From Luteolibacter flavescens (lineage in GTDB: Bacteria; Verrucomicrobiota; Verrucomicrobiia; Verrucomicrobiales; Akkermansiaceae), in contig NZ_JAPDDS010000001.1 of NCBI RefSeq assembly GCF_025950085.1, forward strand, positions 186,001-250,000: a stretch of 64,000 bases of DNA, written 5' to 3'. The translations under genes and the position numbers were made by a program. The notes under the pieces were generated by a model. It worked only from the letters and a program-made list of their open reading frames with translations. It did not search any database and was not told where the DNA came from. Position 1 is the first letter of the stretch, and each line of letters begins with the position of its first letter. Below, one piece after another: positions 37,171 through 45,632 of this stretch.

Positions 37171-38475
37171 TCAGGGAGTCGGGGTCGCCACGATGCGGAA
37201 GAAGCGCTTCGCCGATCCGGGGCCGGGCGCTGCGAGGCTCTTCGTCACGATTTCTCCGGTGCCAGGCACGCTCTCGATCTCGATCCAGGTGCTGAGATCG
37301 TCGCTCATGAAGATGCCGTAGGTTTGGCCGCTGGTGGTGGTGAAGGAGAAGCTGCTGCTGCCACCGGGATTGAGCGTGTAGGCGGTGAGCTGGATATCGG
37401 GAATCGCTTGGAAGGTGACCGAGCCGGCGACATAGGTCGTGTAGCCTGCAGGGGCAGGAGTGACAGCGGAGGAAGCCTGCTGCGGCACGTAGGTCCCGAT
37501 GGGTGCGGGGATCGTTTCTGATGCACCGGACAGAGGCACGTAGGAACCCGGTGCTGCGGCCGATGCGGAGGCTGAACCGGTGGCGGGCACGTAGTAGCCC
37601 GGATCCGCCCGCTTGAAGGAGCTGGCTTGCGTTTTGTCCACGTAGTGGCCCAAGGGGGCGGGGAGCTGTGAATTCATCCCGGTGATCGGCACGTAGTGGC
37701 CTATCGCAGCGGGTGTGTGGGTCGCTGCGCCGGTGCTGGCCACGAAGCTGCCCGCAGGGGCTGGTATTTGTGAGGATGAGCCAGAAGCGGGGACGTAGTA
37801 ACCCGGAGAGGCGGGGATCGCGGCCTGCATGCCGCCGACCGGGGCATAGCTGCCGGCCGGGGCGGCGGTGCCATTGGCCAAGCCCGGTGAAGAGGAAATC
37901 CTCCCGGGCAGGACGGCATACTGCGATGAGGCACTGGGCTCAGGGACGCAGTATCCGGGACTGGCGAGGATGGATGCCTGCATGCCGACTGAAGGCGTGT
38001 AGCTGCCGGGACTGCAGGCGGTGGAAGTGCTCGCTCCGGCTGTGCTCACGAACCGGCCTGCCGGGGCCGGGGTCTGCGATGAAGCTCCTGCCGATGATAC
38101 GAAGTAACCGGGACTCGCGGCGATGGGGGCGCTCATGCCCGCGACCGGAGTGTAATAGCCGGGATTGCATGGCGTGGCAGTGGTGGAGGCCGTACCACTG
38201 GCATAGCTCCCGGCAGGGGCTGGTGTCTGCGAAGGCGAGCCCGTGACGGAGACGAAGTAGCCGGGGCTGGCTGCGATGGGGGCGCTCATGCCTGCCGCAG
38301 GAGTGTAATAGCCGGGACTACATGGCGTGGCGGCGGTCGCATTGGCGGTCGGCACATAGCTGCCCGCCGGGGCGGGAAGCACGCTTGATCCATCAATGTA
38401 GTAACCCGGTGGCGACTCGATGGCCCAGGCCGATGAAAAGAGAACGAAGGGGAGGAGTGGGAGATATGCTTTCAT
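37171..38475 (-). CDS. Secreted short-repeat protein (P-G-Y-Y / G-S-Y units)
   Basis: A signal peptide (about 1-18) is followed by some 19 consecutive units of 16-18 residues (about 25-345), alternately P-G-Y-Y/F-x-P-x-x-G-x-S-x-x-x-P-A and G-S-Y-x(4)-A-x(4)-P-C/A. Two or three units retain a Cys, as in the eukaryotic-like GCC2/GCC3 (ephrin-receptor-like) repeats that they resemble, but most lack it. A C-terminal ~60-residue module (G-Q-T-Y-G-I-F-M-S-D-D-L-S-T-W-I to F-F-R-I-V) matches two other surface proteins here. The protein is probably extracellular and extended. Its gene converges on the lectin-like gene. Function unknown. Confidence 0.83.
   Translation of the reverse strand: MKAYLPLLPFVLFSSAWAIESPPGYYIDGSSVLPAPAGSYVPTANATAATPCSPGYYTPAAGMSAPIAASPGYFVSVTGSPSQTPAPAGSYASGTASTTATPCNPGYYTPVAGMSAPIAASPGYFVSSAGASSQTPAPAGRFVSTAGASTSTACSPGSYTPSVGMQASILASPGYCVPEPSASSQYAVLPGRISSSPGLANGTAAPAGSYAPVGGMQAAIPASPGYYVPASGSSSQIPAPAGSFVASTGAATHTPAAIGHYVPITGMNSQLPAPLGHYVDKTQASSFKRADPGYYVPATGSASASAAAPGSYVPLSGASETIPAPIGTYVPQQASSAVTPAPAGYTTYVAGSVTFQAIPDIQLTAYTLNPGGSSSFSFTTTSGQTYGIFMSDDLSTWIEIESVPGTGEIVTKSLAAPGPGSAKRFFRIVATPTP
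37440..38400 (-). repeat. Coding tandem repeat, about 19 units of about 50 bp
   Basis: DNA encoding the 16-18 residue units of the short-repeat protein. Some paired units (for example those encoding P-G-Y-Y-T-P-x-A-G-M-S-A-P) are nearly identical, pointing to recent duplication. Boundaries are approximate. Confidence 0.7.
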
Positions 38476-38572: not shown

Positions 38573-41410
38573 TCAAGCGTAGCCCAGCCAGGGGCCGAGC
38601 CACTTCTCGGCTTCCTCGACCTTCATGCCTTTGCGGTGCGCGTAGTCTTCTACCTGATCCTTCTGGATCTCCGAGATGGCAAAGTAGTGGCTCTCCGGAT
38701 GGCTGAAGTAGAGTCCGCAGACCGCCGCGCCGGGATGCATCGCGCAGCTCTCCGTGAGCATGACCCCGGTCGGCTCCGATGCTTGTAGTAGATCGAAGAG
38801 GATGGGCTTCTCGGTGTGGTCCGGCTGGGCTGGATAACCCGGTGCCGGGCGGATGCCGCGGTAGAGTTCCTTGATGAGTTCGTTGTGGCCGAATTCATTC
38901 GGACGCTCGTAGCCCCATGATACACGGGCGCGGTGGTGGAGCAGTTCCGCGAAAGCCTCCGCGAGACGGTCGGCCAGTGCCTTGGCCATGATCGCATTGT
39001 AGGGATCGTGGGCGGCTTCCAGTTCCGCGGCCCATTCGTCCGCGCCGTGAATGCCGACGACGAAGCCGCCGATGAAGTCCTTCCCAGCTCCTTGCGGCGC
39101 GACGTAGTCGGAGAGCGCTTCATTCGGCTTGCCCGAGTCCTTCTTGATCTGCTGGCGCAGGGTGTGGAAGCGGGTGCGCTCGGAGATCCGGGAGTCGTCG
39201 CTCCAGACGATGACGTCATCGCCATCGGAGTTCGCGGGGAAAAATCCATAGATGCCGCGAGCGGTGAAGCGCTTCTCGGCGATGACCCGCTCGAGCAATT
39301 CAAGTGCCTCCACGTGAAGCTTGGCTGCCTCCTTCGCTCCTTCCTCGTTTCTGGTCTTCAGGACTCCAGCTTCGCGGTCCCACACACCGCGGAGTTCCCA
39401 GGCATGGAAGAACGGCGTCCAGTCGATGTAGTCCACCAGCTCGCGCAGCGATTGATTCGGGATCGCGCGTGTGCCGGTGAATTCCGGCACCGGTGGGGTG
39501 TAGCCCGACCAATCGGTGTGACGCGCGAGAGCGCGAGCCTCGACGATGCCCACGGTCTCCTTCTTCAGTCCGCCGGTGAATGCCTCGCGTGCCTTGCGGT
39601 GACGCTCGTTGTTATCGGCGATGAAGGACTCTTTCTGATCTGGGGAAAGCAGCGAGGTGGTCACCGGAACCGAGCGCGAGGCATCGAGCACGTGGACCAC
39701 TGGTCCTGAATAATGCTGCGCGATCTTCACCGCGGTGTGGGTCGAGGAGGTCGTCGCTCCGCCGATGAGCAGGGGAACCTTGAAGCCGCCTTTCTCCATT
39801 TCCTTCGCCACGTGGATCATCTCGTCGAGAGACGGGGTGATGAGTCCGGAAAGTCCGATGACGTCCGCGCCAATCTCCTTCGCCTTTGCGAGGATCTTGT
39901 CGCACGGGACCATTACGCCCATGTCGGTCACTTCGAAGCCATTGCAAGCGAGCACGACGCCGACGATGTTCTTGCCGATGTCATGCACGTCGCCTTTCAC
40001 GGTGGCGATGAGGAAACGTCCCGCCGAGCGGCGGCGGCCCGCGAGGGCGATTGCCTCATCACGGCTGATCGATGGATCTCCGGCCATGATCTCGGCGATG
40101 TCGCCTGCGAGGAACTCGGCTTTCTCGGTCTCCATGAAGGGAGTCAGCCATGCGACGGACTTCTTCATCACGCGGGCGCTCTTCACGACCTGCGGCAGGA
40201 ACATCTTGCCCGCGCCGAAGAGGTCGCCAACCACGCCCATGCCGTCCATGAGAGGGCCTTCGATTACCTTCAGGGGACGGCCGTATTTGAGGCGGGCTTC
40301 CTCGGTGTCCTCGTCGATGAATTTGTCGATGCCCTTGAGCAGCGCGTATTCGAGGCGCTTCTCGACGGTGGCTTCGCGCCACGAGAGATCTTCCTCGATC
40401 TTCTTGCCGCCCTGTCCCTTGAAGCGCTCGGCGAATTCAAGCATGCGCTCGGTTGCGTCGGGCCGGCGGTTGAGCAGCACGTCTTCCACGTGCTCGAGCA
40501 TTTCCTTCGGGATCTCGTCATAGACCTCGAGCATGCCGGCATTGACGATGCCCATGTCCATGCCCGCCTTGGTCGCGTGATAGAGGAAGGCCGAGTGCAT
40601 GGCCTCGCGCACCACGTTATTGCCGCGGAAGGAGAACGAGATATTCGAGACCCCGCCCGAGACCTTTGCGTGAGGGAGGTTGGTCTTGATCCAGCGTGTC
40701 GCGTTGATGAAATCGAGAGCGTAGTTGTTGTGCTCATCGATGCCGGTCGCGACGGTCAGGATGTTCGGGTCGAAAATGATGTCCTCCGGCGGGAAGCCGA
40801 CCTTGTCCACCAGCACGCGATAGGCGCGTTCGCAGATGCGGATCTTCTCGTCGTAGGTGGCAGCCTGGCCGTTCTCGTCGAATGCCATGACCACGGTCGC
40901 AGCGCCGAAGCGGCGGATGTACTTGGCCTGTTGGATGAACTTCTCCTCGCCTTCCTTCAGCGAGATGGAATTCACGATGCCCTTGCCCTGGAGGTATTTC
41001 AGGCCTTCCTCGATGATCTCCCACTTCGAGGAGTCCACCATCAGCGGCACCTTCGAGATCGCGGGCTCGCTCTGTACGAGCTGGAGGAAGCGCGCCATCA
41101 TCGCCTTGCCGTCGATCAGTCCGTCGTCGAAGCAGATGTCGATGACGTTGGCACCGCTCTCCACCTGCTGGCGGGCGATCTCAAGCGCGTCATCGAGCTT
41201 TCCCTCACGCACCAGCTTCGCGAACTTCGGCGACCCGGCGACATTCGTGCGCTCGCCGATCATGAGGAAATTCTTGTCCGGCGTGTGATTGTAGGCTTCG
41301 GAGCCTGACAGGCGGAGGACTCGTGGAATGGAGGGCATGGGAAAGTGAAGAAATGGAACCGCCGGGGTGCTGAGAGACTGATTGAAAAGGTCGGGATTGA
41401 ATGGATTCAA
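38573..41410 (-). CDS. metH: Methionine synthase MetH, pterin/B12/AdoMet-activation part
   Basis: C-terminal three-quarters of cobalamin-dependent methionine synthase (945 aa). The pterin-binding domain (about 45-300) has [11 protein letters not shown] and N-S-I-S-L-K-E-G. The B12-binding module (about 335-560) has the cap helix followed by D-V-H-D-I-G-K-N, whose His ligates cobalt, and G-L-S-G-L-I. The AdoMet activation domain (about 600-945) shows G-Y-P-A-Q-P-D-H and S-H-P-E-S-H-Y-F. The homocysteine domain is encoded by the preceding gene, and the start of this one overlaps its stop by 4 bases (ATGA). An in-frame ATG at 41338 is a possible later start. B12 is required; no biosynthesis gene is nearby. 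Confidence 0.95.
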
Positions 41411-42504
41411 TCTTCAAGAAGCGGCACCTCGCGGGGTGCGATGCCCTTCACTCCTTCGGCGATTGCGGCGACGTGTTCCGGTGTGTTTCCGCAGCATCCG
41501 CCGGCGAGATTGAGCAGGCCGTCGAGGGCGAACTCCTTCATGTAGGCATTCATGTGCGGGGGCTCGAGGTCGAAGCCGGTGGGCGCGAGGGGGTTCGGCA
41601 GGCCAGCATTCGGGTAGCAGGAGATGTGCGTGGCGGAAACCTTCGCCAGTTCCTCGAGGTGTGGCTTCATCAGGTCCGGGCCAAGCGAGCAATTAAGGCC
41701 CACTGCCAGCGGATTGACGTGCGCGACGGCATTCCACATGGCCTCCACCTTCTGCGCGGAGATCATCGTTTCACCTCCGCGACCAACCGCTGCGCTCACG
41801 ATGATCGGCAGTTTTAGGGCGTCTGCTTCGAAGACTTCCTGAATCGCGACCAGCGCAGCCTTCGCGTTTAGCGCGTCGAAGATCGTCTCCACCATTAGGA
41901 TGTCGCAGCCGCCTGCGATCAAGGCGCGCACCTGGCGGATGTAGTCCTCCTTCACCTGGTCAAAGGTCACCGTGCGGAAGCCCGCGTCATTCGCATCCGG
42001 CGAGGTGCTCAGCGAGACGGTGAGCGGCCCGATGGCCCCGGCCACGTAGCGTTTGATGCCAGTGTCGCTGCCGACATTGTCAGCCCACTTCCGGCACAGT
42101 CGTGAGGACTCCACATTCAGCTCCCACGCGAGATCGCGGAGCATCGGATCGTCGATGATCTTCTGGAAGAACTCCGGGTCCTTGATGCCGCCGTGCTCGC
42201 GCGGGTCGTCCACGAAGAATTCGCTCTGCGCGATCGAGGTCGCCGAGAAGGTGTTCGTTTCGCAGATGTCCGAGCCGGCCTCGTAGAAGCGCTTGTGGAT
42301 ATCACCGATCACGTCCGGACGCGTGATCGATAGGATGTCACCGTTGTTCAGCAGGTCCTTCTGCGAGTCCGCAAACCGGCTGCCCCGAGCCTCTTTTTCC
42401 ACCAGCCCATACGAACGGATGGTGGTGCCCATCGCCCCGTCGAGGACGAGGATGCGCTGGCGGAGAGCCTTCTGGAGTTCGGCGGTCGGATCGGGGCGAG
42501 CCAT
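41407..42504 (-). CDS. metH: Methionine synthase homocysteine-binding part (split MetH)
   Basis: Homocysteine S-methyltransferase domain, 365 aa, the first module of MetH encoded as a separate protein. It starts with [13 protein letters not shown] and keeps both zinc sites, G-L-N-C-S-L-G and [20 protein letters not shown] is also conserved. It must act with the product of the next gene, translated with a 4-base overlap, to transfer a methyl group from methyl-cobalamin to homocysteine. The start at 42504 (M-A-R-P-D-P) is preferred to one 42 bases upstream. No clear riboswitch is present. The gene is divergent from the sigma-factor gene. Confidence 0.93.
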
Positions 42505-42754
42505 GCCCGCGAGGGTATGACCGCCCGGCGCTTTCGCAAGAGTCAAATCGTCGTATCAGGATGCGTTGATGGATAGTTGGGGGCGCTTGCCACGGGGGCC
42601 CACGACCGGGTCTCTCCAGAGAAGCCGCGAAAGGACGAAAAAATTTGTCACAATCCGACCGACGATTCCGCCTCTAGCGTGAATGACCACGCGGACTGTC
42701 ACGGTGAAACCGGGTGCTGCAGCCAGTCACCAACCATCATCAGCCTTCATTTCC

Positions 42755-44482
42755 ATGATTCGAAATCCGTCATCCATCGCTCACGATCCGGTTTTCATCC
42801 GATACGTGCAGGCGGGAGACGGCGAAGCTTTCCGCGGGCTTGTCGACCGTCATCTGCCTGCCGTTCGCGGTACGGCGTCGCGGGTCCTAGGGACGGGTTC
42901 CCCATGGATCGATGACGTTGCCCAAGAAGTCTTCCTCTCGCTTGCCCGGAAGGCAGGCGTGCTTCCCGGAAATCTGATCCTCTCCGCATGGCTCCACCGT
43001 CAAACCGTACGCCGGGCGACCGATGTCCAGCGTTCGGAAGCAGCCCGTCACCGACGCGAACTCACCACCGATCTCCGCCCCGAGCCTGGATGCCTGACCG
43101 GGGAGCAGATGATCCGGGACCTAGACCGAGAGTTACTACGGTTGCCGGAGCGTGATCGCGAGATCCTGATCCTGCGCTTCATGGATAATTTCAGCTCGGA
43201 GGAGATCGGGCGTCGGCTCGGAATGAGCGCGGCGGGGGTCCGCAAGAAGATCGAGCGCAGCACGGCCAAGCTGAGAGAGCGTCTTCGCCTCACGTCGCAG
43301 CCTGCGGGCTTCACCAGCGCCGCACTGGGCACCTGCCTCGGGATCACTTCCTCAAGCGCGGGCACTACCCATCTCGCCGCGACGATCTGTGCCCGCTGCA
43401 TGGCGATCCCGGTTTCAAAGAGCCTTTTCGGCACACTCATCACCACACTTATCATGAACAAGACACGAGCAATCGTCATTGCGGCACTTCTCTGTGCAGG
43501 CGCTGGAGCCTATCTCGCAGGCAACAGCAAACCTGCCGCCCCTCCGACCCTCGCGAAGTCCACCCCGCCTGCGCCGAGCCTTCCTGTGCCTGCTCCTGCC
43601 CCCGCGGCGCCAGCAAAGCCGACTCTGCCGGTTGCAAAGGCTGATCGTATCGCCAGATTGAAGTCGATCCTTTCCCTGGGAGACGACACCAAGCGCGTTC
43701 AAGCTTTGGCCAATTTCCTGGCGCTGCTCGCCCCGGTTGAGTTCGAGGAAATGATCGACGTTGCCCAGGAATTCCCTCATGCGGATGCGAACGGCGAAAT
43801 CCGGAAGATGATGTATCTGGCATGGGCCCGTCACGACCGGGCTGCCGTTTTTGCGAAGCTGAAGAAGGATCTGCCCGCAGATCAGTTCGATCCGGTTAAT
43901 GATCTCAATGTCACCTTGGCGGTGGCCATCATGCGTGAGTATGCGGCCGAGGATCCCGAGTCGGCCGTGGAATTCGGGCGGGAGCAACTCGTCACCAAAG
44001 ATCCTCGGAAGTGGCCGGCTTATCAGAGCAAGTCGATTACCGCTCTCTTTGACGCCTTGGCCGCCAAGGATCTGCCGCTGGCCACATCCTCAGTCTCTCG
44101 ATTCGAGGGCTACTACGGTGTCAATGAAGCCGTTGCCGCCGTGGTTGCCCATGTCCGTTCGCAGGGCGACGACGCTCTGGAGAAATGGGTTGGTTCGCTT
44201 CCTCCTGAGACTCGCGGAAACACGATCCGGGGCAGGGCCATCCTGCACATCGCCCAAGACATGCTCAAAGATGATGGAGGCAAAGCGATGGACTTCACTC
44301 TCCGGTATGAACCTTCCGTGACCGCCGGTGACACCTCATGGGAGGTGATGACGATGTGGTATAAGAAGGACGCTGAGGCTGCCACCGGCTATGTCGAGAA
44401 GATGCCGGCCGGAGCGTCGCTGGATCAGATGATGAAGGCCATCGAGTTCTCCAAGAAGATGCAGTCACCTTCCGTGAAGTAG
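42755..44482 (+). CDS. ECF sigma factor fused by a TM helix to an extracytoplasmic domain
   Basis: The N-terminal ~190 residues are an ECF sigma factor. Region 2 has A-G-D-G-E-A-F-R-G-L-V and D-D-V-A-Q-E-V-F-L-S-L-A-R, and region 4 has L-P-E-R-D-R-E-I-L-I-L-R-F and E-E-I-G-R-R-L-G-M-S with a K-K-I-E-R helix. A linker leads to a TM helix starting M-N-K-T-R-A-I-V-I-A-A-L-L (about 231-250), followed by a Pro/Ala-rich stalk and a ~260-residue extracytoplasmic helical region. The next gene encodes a paralogue of that region. Membrane tethering suggests control by an outside signal without a separate anti-sigma factor. An upstream ATG at 42683 would add 24 residues. Confidence 0.85.
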   Translation: MIRNPSSIAHDPVFIRYVQAGDGEAFRGLVDRHLPAVRGTASRVLGTGSPWIDDVAQEVFLSLARKAGVLPGNLILSAWLHRQTVRRATDVQRSEAARHRRELTTDLRPEPGCLTGEQMIRDLDRELLRLPERDREILILRFMDNFSSEEIGRRLGMSAAGVRKKIERSTAKLRERLRLTSQPAGFTSAALGTCLGITSSSAGTTHLAATICARCMAIPVSKSLFGTLITTLIMNKTRAIVIAALLCAGAGAYLAGNSKPAAPPTLAKSTPPAPSLPVPAPAPAAPAKPTLPVAKADRIARLKSILSLGDDTKRVQALANFLALLAPVEFEEMIDVAQEFPHADANGEIRKMMYLAWARHDRAAVFAKLKKDLPADQFDPVNDLNVTLAVAIMREYAAEDPESAVEFGREQLVTKDPRKWPAYQSKSITALFDALAAKDLPLATSSVSRFEGYYGVNEAVAAVVAHVRSQGDDALEKWVGSLPPETRGNTIRGRAILHIAQDMLKDDGGKAMDFTLRYEPSVTAGDTSWEVMTMWYKKDAEAATGYVEKMPAGASLDQMMKAIEFSKKMQSPSVK

Positions 44483-44534
44483 ACGGTCGGACCGCCGGGA
44501 CGACGATTTTTGACCCCTTCCATTACAAAGCAAC

Positions 44535-45632
44535 ATGAGCAGAAATCTCGCCATAGGCATCCTCGGCATCCTTGTCCTCGCTATCGCGATCTGGCCTAGA
44601 GGACCGGTCGATGACAATGCCCGAACGGGCGATCCGCAGCCTGGCAGCGTCAGCCGACCTTCCGGCGTTAGCCGGTCGACTCAGGACAGGACGCTCCGAG
44701 AGGATGGAGTGAACTCGCTGACCCCGAGGTCCACTCGTCCGTCGGGCGATCCACTGGAAGGACTCGCGAACATCATGTCCACCGCCGGGGAGGCCGACCG
44801 GGTGATGAAGCTCGCAAACTACATTGGTTCCGTTGACGAAGCCGGACTCGAGGCCATCATCAATGAATTGCATCGGGATCCTGGCCTCGATCCGGGTGAC
44901 TCCTTGCGGCGAATTGTATTCCTAGCCTGGGCGAAGAAGAATCCGAGGGCCGCCTTGGACAAGCTTGAGGAACCCCGTGACTTTCCTGACAAGACGTCGA
45001 TTTATGACCAAAGACGGAGGGATCTTTCGATAGCTAGGGCGATCGGCAGCGACTGGGCGGGGCGGGATCCGAAGGCAGCCGTGAAGTTCGTGAATGCCTT
45101 CTTCACGCCGGACATGACGAATGTCGATATCCTCTCACGTCAGACGATGGGCTATCAACTCGCCGCGGGCATGCTGGCAGCCACCGCGGCTCGCGATATC
45201 ACCGCGGCAGGTTGGATGATGAGGGACTTGGGACGGCGCACCCCTGGCAACAATTTATCGGAGGTCAAACAGCGGGTCGTTTCCCAAGGCGTCCTGGAGA
45301 TGCAGCAGTGGCTGGAGATTTTTCCCGGCAGAGGTGAAGGGCCGGAGGCTGGATTGGATCGCTTCAGCCTCGCCTACGAGCTGGGATTTGAATACTCGAA
45401 ACGAGACATGAAGGCTGGCGCGGACTTCATTTTTGATAACGCCCGTCACGACCCTTTGCTTGCAAGCGATCAGGGCATTCCGATCAATTTCCTCAATTCA
45501 CTCCACTTCCTGTTAACGGCTTGGAAAGCGAAGGATCCCGCCGGAGCAGCAGCTTATGTGGAAGCGCTACCAGAGCGTCACCGGGCCGAGCAGCTCGCGA
45601 AGACCACGGCCCGGGAGATTCTCGCGAAGTGA
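44535..45632 (+). CDS. Membrane-anchored paralogue of the sigma-factor C-terminal domain
   Basis: A short cytoplasmic N-terminus and a TM helix (about 5-20, I-G-I-L-G-I-L-V-L-A-I-A-I-W) precede a ~340-residue extracytoplasmic helical region. Matching stretches in both proteins are D/K-R-V-x-x-L-A-N, R-R/K-I/M-V/M-F/Y-L-A-W-A and A-Y/G-Y-V-E-x-L/M-P near the end, so the two genes share ancestry. The stop-to-start gap to the sigma gene is 52 bases, so they are probably co-transcribed. The protein could be a competing ligand-binder, a co-sensor or a target of the sigma factor. No enzymatic motif is visible. Confidence 0.82.
   Translation: MSRNLAIGILGILVLAIAIWPRGPVDDNARTGDPQPGSVSRPSGVSRSTQDRTLREDGVNSLTPRSTRPSGDPLEGLANIMSTAGEADRVMKLANYIGSVDEAGLEAIINELHRDPGLDPGDSLRRIVFLAWAKKNPRAALDKLEEPRDFPDKTSIYDQRRRDLSIARAIGSDWAGRDPKAAVKFVNAFFTPDMTNVDILSRQTMGYQLAAGMLAATAARDITAAGWMMRDLGRRTPGNNLSEVKQRVVSQGVLEMQQWLEIFPGRGEGPEAGLDRFSLAYELGFEYSKRDMKAGADFIFDNARHDPLLASDQGIPINFLNSLHFLLTAWKAKDPAGAAAYVEALPERHRAEQLAKTTAREILAK

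Follow-up and report, generated by a model that had tools for sequence, protein, structure and literature searches.

The closest described systems, as presented in the portions of the published accounts drawn on here, are ECF sigma factors that carry further domains within the same polypeptide. IutY of Pseudomonas putida is an ECF sigma factor fused to a periplasmic anti-sigma domain, which forms part of a TonB-receptor cell-surface signalling system with an adjoining receptor gene and is activated through proteolysis by Prc and RseP (PMC5411451). The actinobacterial groups ECF52 (e.g. SCO4117; PMC5826349) and ECF48 and ECF53 (PMC8999054) combine a zinc-finger anti-sigma part with a carbohydrate-binding module; ECF42 has a C-terminal TPR extension of about 200 residues, described without a transmembrane (TM) helix and thought to act through protein contacts (PMC8999054). 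The locus analysed here recalls each of these in part. Like IutY, it encodes as one polypeptide a predicted cytosolic ECF sigma domain, a single TM helix, and a periplasmic domain; like the ECF52, ECF48, and ECF53 proteins so described, that polypeptide runs from the sigma domain through a TM helix and a proline-rich stretch to an outer domain; and like ECF42, it ends in a helical-repeat extension. As in a classical ECF sigma/anti-sigma operon, there are two adjoining genes, the second with one TM helix and an outer sensor-like domain.

Within the window (the entire 64,000-nucleotide stretch of DNA that was analysed), the first of these genes encodes sigma-70 regions 2 and 4, a TM helix, and an outer domain, hereafter X, and the second encodes a paralogue of that domain, X' (Table 1). 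A first-pass annotation had read the first gene as one such frame, and Pfam, hydropathy, and AlphaFold agree with this reading. Regions 2 and 4 occur without region 3, as expected of an ECF factor, and PF04542, PF08281, and TIGR02937 all score above their cut-offs; a Pfam search found no credible family in aa 180-575. The AlphaFold model, for which a 25-row alignment was the input, places sigma regions 2 and 4, a weakly predicted juxtamembrane segment, the TM helix, and a disordered linker, in that order, ahead of a confidently modelled 16-helix solenoid (pLDDT mostly above 90 for X). Hydropathy and this model together point to a topology in which one TM helix separates a cytosolic sigma factor from an extracytoplasmic domain; the earlier label "outer-membrane-side" was wrong in that nothing points to the outer membrane. 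The juxtamembrane segment is also seen in relatives, where two leucines (aa 191 and 195) are almost invariant, and is a candidate inhibitor of the sigma domain. By fold comparison, the best match to X is SPIRAL2 TOG, with Z scores of 9.3 and 9.5 that lie in a range any helical repeat would reach. The likeness of X to HEAT/TOG-type solenoids is generic only, and no named HEAT-type relative was singled out. Sequence searches of the PDB with the outer domain gave no credible relative, and PADLOC gave no match to a defence system. A class-wide search of 188 genomes detected this solenoid domain, which has no Pfam family, in 81; the ORFs that contain it span about 300-890 aa.

Table 1. Features of the two-gene locus, in window positions.
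Feature	Position	Strand	Basis and remarks
TGTCAC after A/T tract, -35-like element	42646..42651	+	promoter type common to sigma-fusion genes; 37 nt before ATG 42683
sigma-TM-X fusion gene	42755..44482	+	open frame, 575 codons (575 aa); alternative in-frame first codon ATG 42683 (599 codons, 599 aa); three colinear paralogues
sigma-70 region 2, aa 29-96	42839..43042	+	Pfam PF04542, E 2.3e-7; fold match sigmaE/SigW region 2
sigma-70 region 4, aa 121-173	43115..43273	+	Pfam PF08281, E 5.6e-12
juxtamembrane segment, aa 178-233	43286..43453	+	weakly predicted short helices; candidate built-in inhibitor
internal ATG, Met 234	43454..43456	+	candidate second translation start giving TM-X, 342 aa
transmembrane helix, about aa 234-256	43454..43522	+	hydropathy; model helix 226-256
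disordered Pro/Ala-rich linker, aa 257-294	43523..43636	+	sequence; low pLDDT
extracytoplasmic alpha-solenoid X, 16 helices, aa 295-570	43637..44464	+	model; no Pfam family
free paralogue TM-X', 365 aa	44535..45632	+	starts 52 nt past fusion stop; homologous to X, BLASTP E 7e-13; same helix order (model)
N-terminal TM of free protein, about aa 4-21	44544..44597	+	hydropathy 3.1; model helix 4-18
solenoid X', aa 73-364	44751..45626	+	model

The neighbouring gene had been taken to encode a separate, TM-anchored copy of the outer domain, and this proved correct. In the model, its product starts with a short run of residues and a TM helix, from which a disordered linker leads to a solenoid with the same order of helices as X. 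BLASTP aligns X and X' over 292 columns at 25% identity, with the three motifs previously proposed as shared all in register (LAWA in both; RVQALAN/RVMKLAN; YVEKMP/YVEALP), and when the free protein is used as a whole-genome query the fused domain X is the next-best match (E 1.6e-11). X and X' are thus homologous and, judged by this homology together with the predicted helix order, should have a common fold.

The host genome (5.9 Mb, 71 contigs, 97.5% complete) contains three more full-length sigma-TM-X genes, at 35-38% identity and colinear over most of their length. This excludes a chance or assembly join of two genes, or a frameshift or sequencing error, which the first-pass annotation had named as refuting. 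The same genome also encodes sigma-TM genes with other outer domains, as well as free X genes elsewhere. A scan of genome contigs gave one distant locus only. A second pair of sigma fusion and free copy lies in the host genome at L029:5609-8093 on contig C2, where the two genes overlap by about 22 nt and the outer domain differs from X and has an LTPEQ-like C-terminus.

Relatives of the sigma fusion were found in 19 of 57 relatives, with more than 10 per genome in some. A different query, run against 142 genomes of the order, had matches in 56; part of these matches are free X genes rather than fusions. At the locus with the closest sigma relative (L063:4076-6299 in genome G015; 48% identity), the frame stops just past the TM helix and the solenoid carries on downstream in another frame, which may represent a linker frameshift, natural or from sequencing, or a genuine fission. 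For a broader survey we used 134 distinct sigma-TM fusions from the order; because their selection was based on likeness to the window protein and to one relative, the proportions given here are valid for the sampled fusions. Profiles stripped of the sigma domain, run alongside reversed-sequence decoys (0 decoy matches), identified the solenoid X in 74 of the 134. A free X gene lies immediately downstream, on the same strand, of 49 of these 74 fusions, compared to 5 of 60 fusions with other domains, and in an upstream control only 3 of 77 neighbours contained X. The adjacent free gene overlaps the fusion stop by 4 nt in 22 of 54 cases. For another type of outer domain, a free copy of that same domain can likewise adjoin the fusion (loci L029, L099, and L107).

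A tree of 26 pairs further indicated that the two copies have a shared history. The main family comprises 13 fused and 13 free domains in two separate groups with mirrored branching, which indicates that the pair arose ahead of these duplications and that its two members were inherited and copied jointly. A second family (L173, L174, L177, and L189) again shows mirrored grouping of fused and free domains. The correlation between fused and free distances (0.785) exceeds all 5,000 permutations and is greater than that of either domain with the sigma domain. In the window pair, X and X' instead group together on long branches outside the mirrored groups and may thus stem from a separate duplication, with individual placements being unsure because of the quick search and long branches. 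As far as these sequence comparisons can tell, sigma-TM-X followed by free X is a recurrent two-gene module that is co-inherited, so that the pairing with a domain paralogue, which had been picked out as the point of interest of this locus, is borne out both by the survey of sigma-TM genes and by the co-divergence of the copies. The first-pass annotation had offered decoy, co-sensor, or regulated product as roles of the free copy; its co-inheritance and the 4-nt overlaps make an obligate partner more likely than a product under its own separate control.

Next to 25 of the 74 X fusions there is no free X gene, and the host genome's three other full-length fusions are among these 25, hence the partner is either not always required or located elsewhere. 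Such solitary fusions would suit a plain one-component ECF factor, in which both sensing and the gating of sigma would fall to the fused solenoid by itself; the neighbour would have stayed in place through linkage once duplicated, and its periplasmic role would be unrelated. The apparently widespread occurrence of X in the class outside the sigma-fusion context is also consistent with this explanation, as are the known ECF extensions that act alone in the part of the literature covered here (PMC8999054). We nevertheless consider it rather unlikely, since downstream adjacency far exceeds the upstream control, the fused and free copies diverge together, and same-type pairing is repeated for a second type of outer domain.

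The Met at the start of the TM helix in the window fusion had been proposed as a second start. Among the 134 fusions, 96 have a Met just ahead of the TM helix and 38 do not; this Met is usually followed by T, N, S, or K, with a Lys within a few residues. A Met near a TM helix is not unusual as such, occurring at 24 of 79 internal TM helices of other proteins, and we therefore tested the mRNA context. Around the pre-TM ATG, the mRNA is 2.6 kcal/mol less folded than synonymous-codon shuffles, compared to 3.0 for the true starts of downstream genes as a positive control, and to -0.4, 0.4, and -0.5 for other internal Mets, fusions without the Met, and other internal TM helices, respectively, as negative controls. 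This signal is present in solenoid and non-solenoid fusions, survives thinning of similar sequences (70 genes, p 1.5e-9), and was replicated in 61 new fusions at other loci, mostly from other genera and families (1.9 vs 0.1, p 2e-6). Lys codons downstream of the Met are biased to AAA, and at locus L078, where Val replaces the Met, its codon is GTG, itself a start codon. Shine-Dalgarno sequences are not enriched at the internal ATG, and are also uncommon at true starts here. Taken together, these features make an internal start that yields a sigma-less TM-X protein probable in this family. The proposal of a second start is thus upheld at the family level, where the start-like mRNA was replicated, and finds weak backing in the window gene alone (+0.8). 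An internal transcription start could take the place of a second translation start, although the family promoter motif is absent there, preceding the internal ATG in 2 of 96 fusions, which equals background.

Alternatively, the pre-TM Met may be a fossil of gene fusion, i.e., the former start of a TM-X gene that is now unused, and the TM segment does look just like the N-terminus of a free TM-X protein, with the lack of Shine-Dalgarno enrichment pointing the same way. This seems improbable to us, however, because the start-like mRNA and the AAA bias reside at synonymous sites, where these genes are too diverged to retain a fossil, and because neither is present in fusions without the Met.

Finally, we rejected as very improbable that the free gene encodes a classical anti-sigma factor of the fused sigma. 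A sigma gene followed by a TM gene, with overlaps of 4 nt, is what sigma/anti-sigma operons typically show, but the downstream protein has hardly any cytoplasmic residues ahead of its TM helix (about 3-4 in the window; a median of 6 over the 37 pairs whose start is plausible). This leaves no room for such a domain, and searches of Pfam and NCBIfam gave no match to an anti-sigma factor. The suggestion first made for this locus, of a tethered sigma factor that lacks a classical anti-sigma gene, is therefore supported. With next to no cytoplasmic part, the free partner would be expected to contact the fusion within the membrane or outside.

We give about an even chance to a two-gene module in which a tethered sigma factor is gated by pairing of X with X', and in which the nested TM-X acts as a competitor. 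Gene 1 supplies the ECF sigma factor, joined through a single TM helix to X, which is predicted to lie in the periplasm, and gene 2 supplies a TM-anchored X' with no cytoplasmic part. Pairing of X, X', and the sigma-less TM-X in the periplasm would hold the sigma domain inactive at the membrane, with the juxtamembrane segment probably acting as a built-in inhibitor. A signal that changes this pairing would then release or activate sigma, most simply through intramembrane proteolysis as in IutY, or else through a conformational change. The free and nested copies, as rivals for one partner, would set the threshold. A site-2 protease family (M50) is present in the host genome, but is only permissive for such a scheme given its presence in all 14 control genomes. 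More tentatively, and with a somewhat less than even chance, each locus may give rise to three membrane products, namely the tethered sigma factor, its sigma-less twin begun at the conserved internal codon, and the paralogous partner, whose homotypic pairing on the outer side would govern sigma release as a stoichiometric switch that needs no anti-sigma factor.

A promoter-like motif, TGTC[AC][CG] after a T/A tract, was found 20-60 nt ahead of 53 of the 134 fusion starts, compared to about 2% at random internal codons, and ahead of only 2 of 54 free genes. Its placement ahead of fusions and not of free genes fits a single ECF-type promoter and one transcript per module; the module may thus be transcribed from its own ECF-type promoter, which suggests autoregulation or cross-regulation. 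In the window, the upstream TGTCAC stands at the same distance from ATG 42683 as in relatives, and the true first codon may therefore be this ATG. The ECF-like motif is very near many fusion starts (e.g., window 42640-42682), and these mRNAs may be nearly leaderless. Further upstream, on the reverse strand, a methionine synthase MetH, named by reading of the sequence, is seemingly split at 38573-42546 into ORFs of 379 aa (the homocysteine-binding part) and 945 aa (the rest) that overlap by 4 nt, and 37171-38475 encodes a secreted-looking protein with many short repeats of the PAPAGSYVP...SPGYY type.

Overall, these sequence data suggest a recurrent, undescribed transmembrane signalling design in Verrucomicrobiota. 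In the literature located for this analysis, tethered ECF sigma factors, although known as such, are treated as self-contained. The design would suggest, in concrete terms open to experiment, how ECF factors that lack anti-sigma genes could be controlled, and database entries for these fusion genes may lack a second protein product. A search of the literature on Verrucomicrobiota sigma-TM fusions found nothing relevant; the 2021 ECF reclassification was outside that search, and these sigma factors may already bear a group number in it.

Compared to the described systems, the locus combines familiar parts in a different way. It differs from IutY as so far outlined in having an alpha-solenoid for its outer domain, a paralogue of that solenoid encoded by the adjoining gene, and, for the family as a whole, a likely internal start; a FecR-type anti-sigma domain as in IutY was not found, with no Pfam match in aa 180-575 and an all-alpha solenoid in the model. 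The zinc-finger anti-sigma part and carbohydrate-binding module reported for ECF52, ECF48, and ECF53 are both lacking, as there is no Pfam match to a zinc finger before the TM helix and no Cys pair is conserved across the alignment. The solenoid is predicted to be extracytoplasmic, unlike the extension described for ECF42, and, in contrast to a classical ECF operon, the TM helix belongs to the sigma factor itself, and a cytoplasmic anti-sigma domain is missing from the second protein. The excerpts of the IutY and ECF52 accounts considered here refer neither to an internal start nor to a paired gene for the outer domain (PMC5411451, PMC5826349, PMC8999054). Because the locus has its plan in common with IutY and ECF52 while their defining domains are absent here, we regard it as a variant of the sigma-TM-outer-domain plan. 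In this order the variant is numerous and has been duplicated repeatedly, it comes with a free gene that matches the outer domain, and many of its members contain a start-like codon for a sigma-less isoform.
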